From: Mesorhizobium sp. 131-2-1
GTDB taxonomy: Bacteria; Pseudomonadota; Alphaproteobacteria; Rhizobiales; Rhizobiaceae
Direction: 5' to 3'
Assembly (NCBI RefSeq): GCF_016756535.1
Contig: NZ_AP023247.1
Coordinates: 682,001 to 746,000, forward strand
DNA length: 64,000 bases
Part shown: positions 10,037 to 57,680 of the stretch, piece after piece
Layout of the letters: each line of letters starts with the position of its first letter
Position numbering within the stretch: the first letter of the stretch is position 1
Made by a program: the position numbers and the translations under genes
The notes under the pieces: generated by a model
What the model was told of the DNA's origin: nothing
The model's input: only the letters and a program-made list of their open reading frames with translations
Database searches by the model: none

Positions 10037-10106
10037 CCGTCCATTTTCTCCACTTGCGCCGTCCCGTGACGCAGTCGCGATTGACCCCTATCCGACCTTC
10101 ACATAA

Positions 10107-10151
10107 GCAGGTTCCGCAAAAGTGTCCCGCGGTTTTGCGACAAGAACCTGC
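10107..10151. repeat. REP-like hairpin in dapD upstream region
   Basis: Arms GCAGGTTC-CGCAAAA and TTTTGCG-acaa-GAACCTGC enclose a short GC-rich loop. It lies between the divergent LOG gene and dapD. It is of the type dispersed between rhizobial genes and could also affect the dapD leader. Confidence 0.6.
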
Positions 10152-10270
10152 GATATGCAAAGACCGAGGCAGGCAAGTTCGCCAAGCGAACGAAGCCTGC
10201 TTTAGGGTCTGCGCGACTTTGAAACAGGTTAAGGCGCTGCCCCTTAACAGCTTGGTAACGGAGCAAATTG

Positions 10271-23927: not shown

Positions 23928-25100
23928 ATGAAGGCCGAACCGACCGCTTCGGGTGGCGCCGGTGCCGCAGGGAGCCCGGACCCGCGCGAGGCCGCGCGCG
24001 CGGATACGCATCTGATGCGATCCCTGCTCATCGGCATCTTCATCCTGATGACCGTCTACGCGCTCTATTTCGGCCGCGCCTTCTTCATGCCGGTGATCCT
24101 CGCCTTCCTGCTGGCGCTGACGCTAACGCCGATCGTGCGCTTCCTGCGCCAGCGTGGCGTGCCCGATGCGCTGTCGGCAACGCTGCTGGTGCTCATGTCG
24201 GTGATTTTCGTCGCCGGCGCCGGCTACCTGCTCAGCGGCCCGGTCATCGACCTCATCAACAACGCCCCCTCGATCGGCCTGCAGCTGACCGAGCGCATGG
24301 CACAGCTCAGGCAGCCGTTCGAGAAGATCATGCAGATCTCGCACCAGCTGGAAGGGCTGACCGAGACCTCGCAGGAGCCCGACGTGCAGAAGGTCGTGCT
24401 GGCGCAGTCCGGCATCTTGTCTTCCGCCGCCGGCAACGTCTTGTCGGCAGGCACCGGCATCACCATCGTCTTCGTACTGTCGCTGTTCCTGCTCGCCTCG
24501 GGCACGATGTTCTACGAGAAGATCATCCAGTCCTTCACCAGCCTCAGCGAGAAGAAGCGGGCCTTGCGCGTCGTCTACGACGTCGAGCGCGAGATCTCGC
24601 ACTATCTGCTCACCGTCGCCGTCATCAATGCCGGCCTCGGCACCGTGATCGGCCTTGGCCTGTGGGGGCTCGGCATGCCCAATCCGCTGGTCTGGGGGGC
24701 GGCCGCGGCCCTGCTCAACTTCCTGCCCTATGTAGGGGCGCTGATGACGATCCTGCTGGTCACGGTGATCGCGCTGATCAGCTTCGACTCGTTCTCCTTT
24801 GCGCTGCTGGCGCCCGCCTTCGTGCTGCTGTGCGACATCGTCGAAGGCCAGTTCGTGACGCCGATGGTGGTCGGCCGGCGGCTGGAGATCAACGCGGTGG
24901 CGATCTTCATCGCCATCGCCTTCTGGTCGTGGCTGTGGGGCTTCGTCGGCGCGTTGATGGCGGTGCCGCTGCTGGTCGTCATCAAAGTGTTCTGCGACCA
25001 TTTCGACGGGCTGAGCCATGTCGGCAATTTCCTGGCTGCACAGCACAGCGTCGTGGTCGAGGAGGATACGGCCGGCGAGAACGGCAAGGCCGGCGCATAG
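23928..25100 (+). CDS. AI-2E family permease-like transporter
   Basis: This 390-residue inner-membrane protein has about seven or eight membrane helices, a large soluble loop between helices 3 and 4 ([22 protein letters not shown]), and the conserved [22 protein letters not shown] and [17 protein letters not shown] motifs. The family includes TqsA-like exporters and Na+/H+ antiporters, so the name does not prove autoinducer transport. ATG 23928 follows GAGGGAA. A rhizobial palindrome with a T-run follows the stop. Confidence 0.9.
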
Positions 25101-25145
25101 AGCGGTTCGCCGTTTCATGGAAACGGCAAGACCGCTCTATCTTTT
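25099..25145 (+). terminator. Palindrome and T-run after the AI-2E gene
   Basis: AGAGCGGT-tc-GCCGTTTC and GAAACGGC-aag-ACCGCTCT style arms form a near-perfect 18-bp stem (25099-25138), followed by ATCTTTTT. It belongs to a dispersed rhizobial repeat type and could also work as a Rho-independent terminator. Confidence 0.7.
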
Positions 25146-25281
25146 TGCTTTGCCGCAATTCCGGTACGGAAAACCGTACACACTTTTCCTGGAATTGCTG
25201 TCCGCGACAATTGTTTGCCGCTTCCCTTTGTCGGTCCGGACGGAGTGCCTATATCGAACCGGTCAAGCCGGACCTCCTTTC

Positions 25282-54926: not shown

Positions 54927-54974
54927 GATCTCCCCCCTCGTGGGGGAGATGGCCGGCAGGCCAGAGGGGGGCGC
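54927..54974. repeat. Family A repeat, copy A1
   Basis: It has core TCTCCCCCCTCGTGGGGGAG, then GATGGCCGGCAGGCCAGAGGGGGG and CGC. It is a hairpin-forming GC-rich element 41 bases beyond the DUF559 stop. Copy A2 (55429-55478) is its near-exact inverse on the other side of that gene, differing at about two positions. Confidence 0.85.
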
Positions 54975-55015
54975 TGTCCCGCCAGCCTACCGCAACTACA
55001 GCCCCTCCCAACGGT

Positions 55016-55390
55016 TCACTCAAGAGGCTCCGCGAGCCCAGCCGCAATCACAATATGCTGGCAGACATTGTCGATGTCGCGAATGATGTCGTCGTTCCAA
55101 AAGCGCAGAACGGTCCAGCCGTCCTGTTCCAGACGCGCTGTCCTTGCCTTATCGCTGATGACAGCATCGGGTTCCGTATGCTGGGAGCCGTCGACCTCGA
55201 CGACGATACTTTTCTCCGAGCAAGCGAAGTCGACAATGTAGCCGGCGATCGGAAACTGCCGCCGAAAGCCAAGCCCCATCAACCGGTGCGCGCGAAGTTC
55301 GTTCCAGAGCTTCAATTCGGCTGATGTCATGACCTTGCGCATCGATCTGGCATTTGCGCGATGTTTTGGAGGCAATGGCGTATGGGGCAT
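55016..55390 (-). CDS. DUF559 (Vsr-like) endonuclease-domain protein
   Basis: This 124-residue protein has a very-short-patch-repair-like PD-(D/E)XK core: the RxxMTxAExxLWxxLR start (MRKVMTSAELKLWNELRAHR), GLGFRRQFPIAGYIVDFAC (Asp54), SIVVEVDGSQH (Glu65, Asp67, His71) and VLRFWNDDI. It is probably a small nuclease; the target is unknown. The gene is enclosed by two inverted copies of one repeat only 41 and 38 bases away, making a compact ~550-bp cassette. Confidence 0.9.
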   Translation of the reverse strand: MPHTPLPPKHRANARSMRKVMTSAELKLWNELRAHRLMGLGFRRQFPIAGYIVDFACSEKSIVVEVDGSQHTEPDAVISDKARTARLEQDGWTVLRFWNDDIIRDIDNVCQHIVIAAGLAEPLE

Positions 55391-55428
55391 TGTCTATGCT
55401 CGTTGGCTATTGAGGTTGGTGCTCTACG

Positions 55429-55478
55429 GCGCCCCCCTCTGTCCTGCCGGACATCTCCCCCACGAGGGGGGAGATTGG
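55429..55478. repeat. Family A repeat, copy A2 (inverted)
   Basis: This is the inverse complement of A1: GCGCCCCCCTCTGTCCTGCC, then GGACATCTCCCCCACGAGGG and GGAGATTGG. It stands 38 bases before the DUF559 start codon and nine bases from the CDGSH gene stop. Confidence 0.85.
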
Positions 55479-56176: not shown

Positions 56177-56367
56177 GCTCCCCCTTCCCCCCTTGTGGGG
56201 GAAGGGGGATCGGCGCGCAGCGCCGAGACGGATGAGGGGTGCTGGAAGAAACGCAGCGTCGAAAATTGAAGGATTTTAAGCGCTTAGCGTCCAGCGCCGC
56301 GATCCTTCCAGCACCCCTCATCCGACCTCGCTTCGCGAGGCCACCTTCTCCCACAAGGGGAGAAGGA
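56177..56367. repeat. Family B repeat pair B1/B2 (head-to-head)
   Basis: B1 (56177-56243) reads CCCCTTCCCCCCTTGTGGGG, then a GCGCGCAGCGC stem, then GACGGATGAGGGGTGCT. B2 (56310-56367) is an inverted copy starting AGCACCCCTCATCCG and ending CCACAAGGGGAGAAGG. A 66-base spacer separates them. The pair occupies the whole gap between the CDGSH and Cys-rich genes. Confidence 0.85.
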
Positions 56368-56377
56368 AGGGCGCCGC

Positions 56378-56749
56378 CTACTCCACCAGATCGATTTCCT
56401 CGGTCTGGCCGCCGCTGCAGGTGTAGCAGCAGTCCTCGCATTTTTCCTTGTTGCCGGGGCCGACGCCCCAATAGGTCTCCTCGTCGCCGTCGACCCAGGC
56501 GCCGTAGCAGATCGATTCGCCCTCGTTGCAGGAGATCGGCAGTTCCTTGGTCTCGCCGTCGTCGAGGTAAAAATCCTTGCCATTGCCCGGCCAGACATAG
56601 TCGCGGTCCTGACTGTAGAGCTCGAGCCGCATGGCGTTGGGATGGCTGTTCTTGATCTCGAAGGTGACATCGCCGGCATGCGCCGCGGGCGCGGCCAGCG
56701 AGGCGATGAAGAAGGCCGCGGCGATGCGGCGGGCGGTGAAGAAAGTCAT
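56378..56749 (-). CDS. Small secreted Cys-rich protein, paralogue 1
   Basis: This 123-residue protein starts with a signal peptide (MTFFTARRIAAAFFIASLAA, cut after AHA). The mature part is a small beta-rich domain with NSHPNAMRLELYSQDR, then CNEGESICYGAWVDGD and a C-terminal CEDCCYTC cluster, giving about six Cys that probably form disulfides in the periplasm. It shares this pattern with the protein at 57078-57425, so the two are tandem duplicates. The family and function are not recognised. Confidence 0.78.
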   Translation of the reverse strand: MTFFTARRIAAAFFIASLAAPAAHAGDVTFEIKNSHPNAMRLELYSQDRDYVWPGNGKDFYLDDGETKELPISCNEGESICYGAWVDGDEETYWGVGPGNKEKCEDCCYTCSGGQTEEIDLVE

Positions 56750-56878
56750 GCTGGTCCCCCGAAAGAATCGGCCCCCACGGCCGACAGGTCGAACATCGCA
56801 TGCGAGGCTGGAGCGAGGAAGGATTGATTGGCGTGTTGTCCCCGCGACGTTGGCGATTGGCGAAGGCCGAGATGACAG

Positions 56879-57062
56879 CCAATCTCCCCCCTTGTGGGGG
56901 AGATGTCCGGCAGGACAGAGGGGGGCGCGAAGGAACGCCAGCATCTCGCTTAAGTCGCTCGGAATCCGCAAAGCAGGTGATCGCATCGACTGACTGAAAT
57001 GCCGGCGGGACAGCGCCCCCCTCTGGCCTGCCGGCCATCTCCCCACAAGGGGGGAGATCGGC
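56879..57062. repeat. Family A repeat pair A3/A4 (head-to-head)
   Basis: A3 (56879-56928) reads CCAATCTCCCCCCTTGTGGG onward to GGGGGGCGC. A4 (57012-57062) is its inverse. An 83-base spacer lies between them. The pair sits in the 328-base gap between the two Cys-rich paralogue genes; the rest of the gap shows no gene. Confidence 0.85.
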
Positions 57063-57077
57063 AGCTTCGGCGCCGCC

Positions 57078-57425
57078 CTACTCCGCCAGGTCGATCGTCT
57101 CGGTGGAGTGCTCCACGCAGATGAAGCAGCAATTGTCGCAAGGCTGGTCGTTGTCCGGGCCGACGCCGGCGGTGACGCTGTCGTCGCCATTGACCCAGGC
57201 GCCCCAGCAGATGTTCTCGCCCGGATTGCACGAGATCGGCACCGATTTGCGCGCGCCCGGGCGGATGAGGAAGACCTTGTCGTCGCCCGGCCAGACCGTC
57301 TCGCGGTCGCGGCTGAACAGTTCCACCGCGACGCCTTGCGATCGCTGGTTCTTGACGAAGACCGACATCTCGGCGGCCTGGGCGGGACCGGCGAGGAGAA
57401 GGGCGGCGAGGGCGAGGCGAATCAT
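57078..57425 (-). CDS. Small secreted Cys-rich protein, paralogue 2
   Basis: This 115-residue protein has signal peptide MIRLALAALLLAGPAQA and a mature domain with VKNQRSQGVAVELFSRDRETVWPG, CNPGENICWGAWVNGD, GVGPDNDQPCDNCCFIC and the end TIDLAE. The spacing of the six Cys and the GAWV-GD and GVGP motifs match paralogue 1. It is probably periplasmic. Function is unknown. Confidence 0.8.
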   Translation of the reverse strand: MIRLALAALLLAGPAQAAEMSVFVKNQRSQGVAVELFSRDRETVWPGDDKVFLIRPGARKSVPISCNPGENICWGAWVNGDDSVTAGVGPDNDQPCDNCCFICVEHSTETIDLAE

Positions 57426-57520
57426 GGCGGTGGGTTCCCGGAGGTGGGGAAGTAGAGCATGGGCGCCGGAGCGGCGCGACCTCCCCTTCTCCCCTTGAGG
57501 GCAGGACAATCGTGTATGGC

Positions 57521-57680
57521 GCTCCCCCTCTCCGTCTCGGCTTCGCCGAGCCACCTCTCCCCCACTTTGTGGGGGCGAGGAACCCAAGCTTTTCAAGGCC
57601 GCGACCTCGGCGCTTGGCTTTCCTCGCCCCCGTGAAACGGGGGAGAGGTGGCCGCGTAGCGGCCGGAGAGGGGGCTGGCG
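57521..57680. repeat. Family C repeat pair (head-to-head)
   Basis: The left copy (about 57521-57583) has CCCCCTCTCCGTCTCGGC, CCACCTCTCCCCC and GGGGGCGAGGAA. The right copy (about 57618-57680) is its inverse, with CCTCGCCCCCGTGAAACGGG, GAGAGGTGGCCGC and CCGGAGAGGGGG. A 34-base spacer separates them. The gap (57426-57725) has no gene. Confidence 0.8.

Follow-up and report, generated by a model that had tools for sequence, protein, structure and literature searches.

The 64,000 nucleotides of Mesorhizobium sp. 131-2-1 analysed here (contig NZ_AP023247.1, positions 682,001 to 746,000, hereafter the window) contain a gene for a DUF559 nuclease lying between two inverted copies of a hairpin repeat, an arrangement that recurs around DUF559 genes in other bacteria. 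Such genes adjoin hairpin repeats, enzyme subfamilies match repeat families, paired bases covary in the repeat family of the window (class 4), the genes and a frequent type of repeat co-occur across the phylum, and pairs of repeats that enclose no gene are present at some sites and missing from orthologous ones. These repeats probably have DUF559 as their cognate nuclease, an analogue of the RAYT proteins from another enzyme superfamily, the two forming a widespread repeat-plus-nuclease system.

The gene and its two arms occupy the following positions.

54928..54977, plus strand: arm A1 of the inverted-repeat pair, a GC hairpin, a small second hairpin and a G-rich tail towards the gene

55016..55390, minus strand: DUF559 (PF04480) nuclease gene, an open reading frame of 124 amino acids, profile match E 1.4e-37

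55426..55475, minus strand: arm A2 of the pair, inverted copy of A1, tail towards the gene

The profile match of the protein reaches 128.3 bits against a curated cut-off of 20.6, the GC hairpin is perfect in each arm, and the arms, 50 nt each, are 94% complementary. A first-pass annotation of this stretch had described a DUF559 gene between inverse copies of one repeat, and this is borne out; its inverted arms do stand close to the gene, with a measured length of 50 nt in place of about 46 bp and with gaps to the open reading frame of 38 and 35 bases in place of 41 and 38. When one 350-bp flank of the gene is aligned locally against the other, the score, used below as a bracket score with thresholds of 30 and 25, is 50.5. 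In the genome 5 DUF559 genes were found, all with hairpin arms within about 100 bp as judged by eye, the arms belonging to three repeat families. Bracketing on both sides is found at 2 of the 5 only (the window locus and L003), two others (L001 and L004) have an arm pair on the 5' side only and the last (L005) is a truncated gene with a single arm.

It is apparent that this arrangement is common in the genus. The sample consisted of 40 regions of about 20 kb round DUF559 genes in the window's own genome and in 13 congeners, drawn from complete or nearly complete genomes among the matches listed, with 41 of 42 genes scored and one too near the locus edge left out. A bracket score of at least 30 was reached by 21/41 DUF559 genes and 2/1600 random windows of the same regions, and one of at least 25 by 24/41 and 11/1600, so that the genes are bracketed far above random windows; in many of those below threshold the only arm is 5' of the gene. 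Class-6 DUF559 genes also occur as tandem pairs with a spacing of about 1.1 kb, every gene having arms of its own (L008:1471-1809 and 2556-2894, L016:386-724 and 1471-1809). In other alphaproteobacterial genomes, where 28 of 29 loci were scored and one clipped locus was left out, 9/28 loci scored at least 30 (1/560 control windows) and 14/28 at least 25 (15/560). A repeat-depth profile was discarded, being inflated by orthologous sites.

A wider scan took the best 80 of 550 confirmed loci in named genomes and is thus no random sample. Scores were obtained for 79 of the 80, one locus being too near its end, and a further locus, L170, owed its score to a run of N; once it is removed 39/78 score at least 30. 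DUF559 genes were also set against the neighbouring genes of the same loci, leaving out 3 of the 80 (L170 and two non-alphaproteobacterial loci with short or N flanks), and at least 30 was scored by 26/50 DUF559 genes and 0/388 neighbours in Alphaproteobacteria, and by 12/27 and 1/166 in other or unassigned records. DUF559 homologues do not, therefore, generally lack flanking repeats, and the repeats are closer to DUF559 genes than to others. Among the non-alphaproteobacterial records scoring at least 30 are Xanthomonas, Luteimonas, Rhodanobacter, Gallionella, Thiobacillus and Gastranaerophilales, with lower scores in one Chloroflexi and one Nitrospirales record; the Legionella and Neisseria loci of the scan have no bracket. 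Ordinary terminators were considered as the source of the hairpins and rejected, as hairpins on both sides were found for 26/50 and 18/27 DUF559 genes in the two groups and for 10/388 and 4/166 neighbours.

The repeats differ from one DUF559 subfamily to the next. The genus yielded 65 non-redundant units, which group into six protein clusters with characteristic arms, cluster 3 being mixed, and a hairpin near the gene was undetected in 2 of the 65. Protein identity and arm similarity are correlated with an r of 0.62 over 1747 unit pairs without homologous outer flanks, the highest value in 2000 label permutations being 0.16. In 52 of 59 cases an arm had its nearest neighbour within its own protein cluster, where about 32% would be expected.

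The class-4 family is dispersed through the 7.1-Mb genome of the window, in which the arm motif GGGGGAGATGNCCGGCAGGNCAGAGGGGG occurs in 49+47 copies at up to 2 mismatches; the same motif read backwards as a control has 0 copies. The second hairpin was compared over 165 class-4 arms from distinct contexts: its inner pair is T-A in 90, G-C in 35 and C-G in 35, making 160/165 Watson-Crick where 41% would be expected under independence, and this covariation suggests selection for the fold. Of 61 genomes, those with a class-4 DUF559 gene among the matches listed (n=43) have a median of 105 class-4 arms and a minimum of 29, the remaining genomes, without one among those matches (n=18), a median of 25 (p 2e-6, relatedness uncorrected), the class label being read from profile end positions, by which weak or truncated gene copies are missed. 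There are 79 close class-4 pairs, in counts that pool partly overlapping loci with redundancy kept; 19 are of the size of a gene unit with tails inward, 14 are short and inward, and 46 are short and outward.

Arms of many DUF559 genes in the named genomes follow the pattern CCCTCTCCC-loop-GGGAGAGGG-nn-GGGTGAGGG, the tail facing the gene, and this frequent type appears, on its sequence, to be the G/C-rich intrastrand-triplex motif BoxC/PIT/TMECO, the consensus of which (CCCTCNCCC-loop-GGGNGAGGG-NNN-GGGNGAGGG) was seen in the arms of many other DUF559 genes. An E. coli copy of this repeat is reported to form an intrastrand triplex in vitro; the motif is reported from more than 260 genomes, and in the accessible text its describers find no tie to mobile elements or flanking-gene functions and leave its origin open (PMC4666352). 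An Enterobacter genome has 100 copies, for which a role in termination was suggested in the part of the source available (PMC2869309).

Across 398 Pseudomonadota genomes the PIT pattern is present in 100, with 0 matches to a reversed control in the listed genomes. DUF559 was matched in 145 and strongly in 110 (E <1e-10); the 35 matches to PF04480 that were weak (E 8.8e-4 to 4.9e-8) did not count as DUF559 in the test. Both are found in 80 genomes, PIT alone in 20, DUF559 alone in 30 and neither in 268, giving an odds ratio of 36 (p 2e-39), with DUF559 genomes that have other arms, the window's included, scored as PIT-negative because the pattern represents one arm type. When stratified over 17 families, 70 co-occurrences were observed and 48.5 expected, and of the genomes with at least 10 PIT copies 39/47 have a strong DUF559 match. 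For PIT and RAYT the corresponding table (51, 49, 161, 137) has an odds ratio of 0.89, with no association. RAYT proteins were also considered as the mobiliser and set aside, as PF01797 has 0 matches in the window protein and in the window's genome and is present in 7/61 congeners.

In Escherichia coli K-12 MG1655 YcjD (b1289) is a DUF559 protein, matching PF04480 at E 1.4e-49 and sharing 45% identity with the window protein over 114 residues; the control panel of the PF04480 search gave no E. coli signal despite this match. Number 9 in the published TMECO table (1,351,239-1,351,204) lies about 170 bp past the 3' end of ycjD (1,351,407-1,351,760). The end of the gene is overlapped by another, degenerate arm, which is better preserved in strain ET201. 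Directly 5' of ycjD is a strong hairpin of other sequence (CACCTCATTCTGACAA...TTGTCAGAATGAGGTG, L262:3765-3801). A ycjD-fabI query was covered to at least 80% in 3318/5426 E. coli genomes, and a clean empty site was not found: in the two strains read that are without ycjD, A20 and AVS0713 (L263 and L264), an RND efflux operon occupies the space between sapF and fabI. In the accessible part of PMC12817139 this is described as eefRABCD, with ycjD as its replacement.

Pairs of arms that enclose no gene also vary in their presence, and two lie in the window.

56183..56366, no strand assigned: stand-alone class-6 pair, 5' of the CDGSH gene, from inverted repeats and a comparison of orthologous loci

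56834..57075, no strand assigned: stand-alone class-4 pair, tails inward (arms 56882-56928 and 57013-57054), from inverted repeats and a comparison of orthologous sites

The class-4 pair, 242 bp long, had been noted by the first-pass annotation as a stand-alone recurrence of the repeat, rightly so, and it is missing at the orthologous site of a relative (G391). Around the CDGSH gene, for which 30 orthologous loci were fetched from 103 genomes with a match, a DUF559 unit occupies the window's position in 5/30, a DUF559 gene stands on the other side, at the spot of the class-6 pair, in 16/30 (two in pieces), and at these spots some of the remaining loci have pairs of several families without a gene. 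One locus, L208, has both class-6 arms together with the inner flank and no gene. Queries for three E. coli TMECO pairs were covered to at least 80% in 3521 (hrpB-mrcB), 2752 (fepB-entC) and 3511 (lldD-trmL) of 5426 genomes, partly deleted copies being included in the first and third, and the examples read comprise pair-less sites with matching flanks and, in two strains, fused single palindromes. A freely jumping cassette of about 550 bp, as had been proposed for the window locus, is unsupported and was rejected, as several units share sites across species, no target-site duplication was seen and 46/79 close class-4 pairs have the opposite polarity.

Further elements were noted on the way. 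The stand-alone class-4 pair is flanked by paralogous small genes (56379-56752 and 57081-57425, about 68% DNA identity), and at 57515-57585 is another hairpin resembling an arm, of the same type as those bracketing the DUF559 gene of L060. More short dispersed elements with GC palindromes, missing in at least one relative, lie at 1900-1991, 10106-10202 and 25089-25204, and some have CCGAAAACCGCTTCACACTTTTCGG-like cores in relatives. A 232-bp insertion (L227:4227-4458, genome G389) with CGTCATTCTAGGG / CCCTAGAATCCA ends is CGTC REP-like and absent at the window's orthologous site, and a 796-bp insertion (L223:5477-6272, G390) is absent in the window and relatives.

The enzyme itself resembles nucleases. 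The DUF559 profile matches a solved endonuclease-like protein, 3hrl, at E 5.8e-36 and weakly a mobile-intron endonuclease of Vsr fold, 3r3p (E 4.5e-4), and a PADLOC homing-endonuclease model is matched at E 5.2e-5. In the text available of PMC1189080 DUF559 is a putative PD-(D/E)XK nuclease, the YcjD profile detects Vsr, and in Vsr the (D/E)XK half-motif is replaced by FXH; the DUF559 alignment, read by eye, has an invariant E-x-D at that stretch and not FXH.

A mechanism can be proposed from this anatomy. The repeat arm consists of a short hairpin rich in G and C and, after it, a G-rich tail, an arrangement that in many other bacteria is the BoxC/PIT triplex motif; inverted pairs of arms are scattered between genes, and a few of them enclose or adjoin the gene for the presumably matching DUF559 nuclease. 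The protein would recognise its own folded arm, as hairpin or triplex, probably when single-stranded during replication, and would nick or cut it, and copying or repair from the break might then place arm-bounded DNA at new sites, or remodel it. The gene-less pairs would be non-autonomous dependants, the whole working like RAYT and REPIN with an unrelated enzyme. It may well be, further, that DUF559 nucleases including YcjD are the cognate enzymes of BoxC/PIT/TMECO and related hairpin repeats, a second, RAYT-independent REPIN-like class in which a PD-(D/E)XK nuclease recognising a hairpin or triplex drives gain, loss and spread; this is rated slightly lower because the named genomes are a best-hit sample and in view of the polarity and polarisation of the pairs.

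A number of observations weigh against a cognate nuclease. Short class-4 pairs mostly have their tails outward (46 against 14), opposite to the gene unit, and therefore a stand-alone pair of this family is usually not simply a unit minus its gene; of the E. coli TMECO pairs in the table of PMC4666352, as far as it was available, 4/5 have tails inward. Genome G053 has 36 class-4 arms and no DUF559 match, and G008, G034 and G037 have many such arms and no class-4 DUF559 among the matches listed. PIT is without a strong DUF559 match in 20/100 genomes, and strong DUF559 is without the PIT pattern, which has 0 matches in the window's own genome (G000), in 30/110, behind which there may be other arm types. 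No PIT arm was seen 5' of ycjD, hence this is adjacency and not a bracket. Several DUF559 units stand at the same site in different species, no clear target-site duplication was found at the site compared in the window or at the three compared in E. coli, where the flanks have drifted, and the presence/absence sites, the pair missing in G391 among them, fit loss as well as insertion. For VsrA, a DUF559 protein of Caulobacter, a role in mismatch repair has been put forward (PMC12907096, in the portion accessible). The first-pass annotation had supposed that the nuclease spreads or maintains the repeats as RAYT proteins do, with a different enzyme class; the association is strongly supported, and recognition, cutting, copying and thus any spreading or maintenance are what we infer from profile matches and the anatomy of the loci.

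Several of these points would also suit a housekeeping role in which DUF559 nicks hairpins or triplexes off replication forks, the repeats spreading by other means and the gene being regulated by the arms or having arrived with them. In vitro TMECO is a block to polymerase, and TMECO loci are unstable, according to the available text of PMC4666352; the fused palindromes of two E. coli strains resemble arm-to-arm deletions, and many DUF559 units are at conserved sites. Alone it leaves unexplained why each subfamily is surrounded by its own repeat family, and why gene-bearing and gene-less pairs with common arms are found at one spot, and it is regarded as unlikely. The units that recur at the same sites across species would equally be expected of a homing-type element, where the nuclease would cut a site and recombination would copy the arm-bounded unit in from the allele that holds it, so that it would spread between strains at fixed sites and not inside one genome, and the matches to 3r3p (E 4.5e-4) and the PADLOC model (5.2e-5) are of the right kind; the gene-less pairs dispersed over many unrelated sites would not be accounted for, which makes homing distinctly improbable.

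A role in very-short-patch mismatch repair like that put forward for VsrA of Caulobacter, with the repeats irrelevant, is supported by the dependence of the effects of VsrA on a cytosine methyltransferase, reported in the part of PMC12907096 available. It would predict neither the bracketing nor the co-occurrence, and is thought more improbable still. E. coli, moreover, already has Vsr with Dcm. Chance, or a common preference for intergenic space, is hardly credible: repeats and DUF559 genes are both intergenic and the window is locally repeat-rich, yet such a preference does not explain the bracketing because the neighbouring genes of the same loci give 0/388 and 1/166, and the coupling is specific (r 0.62 between protein and arm), with none for RAYT.

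If DUF559 is indeed the cognate nuclease, a domain of unknown function would be joined to the unexplained BoxC/PIT/TMECO repeats, the RAYT/REPIN arrangement would have been invented independently by an unrelated nuclease, and there would be a candidate enzyme for Mesorhizobium, which is repeat-rich yet mostly without RAYT (7/61 genomes). The observations suggest a second, so far unrecognised kind of repeat-plus-enzyme system. No link between DUF559 or ycjD and BoxC/PIT/TMECO or REP repeats was found in the literature searched, most subscription papers and preprints being outside it.

On the side of the enzyme, Vsr and the Vsr-fold homing endonuclease (3r3p) are distant sequence relatives of the DUF559 nuclease. 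Vsr acts at T:G mismatches and the Vsr-fold homing endonuclease at its intron target site. To our knowledge bracketing by dispersed hairpins is absent from the descriptions of either. On the side of the repeats, the RIME elements of rhizobia are paired palindromes of about 100 bp in intergenic DNA. The GTAG and CGTC REP superfamilies and untagged REP-like repeats are likewise short palindromes, often paired, and the CGTC class is reported without a transposase in the accessible part of PMC3733652; membership of that class was rejected, as the arms read by eye have neither a CGTC nor a GTAG tag, carrying a G-rich tail instead. BoxC/PIT/TMECO has the same hairpin and tail as many DUF559 arms outside the window's own family, the A arms of the window differing in their extra small hairpin and in having no match to the PIT pattern, and it is described, in the text of PMC4666352 available, without any linked enzyme. 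The nearest parallel is with RAYT and REPIN, for example at yafM of E. coli. RAYT is a Y1 HUH transposase with GTAG-tagged repeats, where here the enzyme is DUF559 and the arms have a G-rich tail. In both a single gene lies between inverted palindromes that are also dispersed in many copies and pairs, as counted here for the repeat family of the window and as given for RAYT/REPIN in the available portions of PMC2817692 and PMC3116915, and in both the families of the enzyme and of the repeat match.
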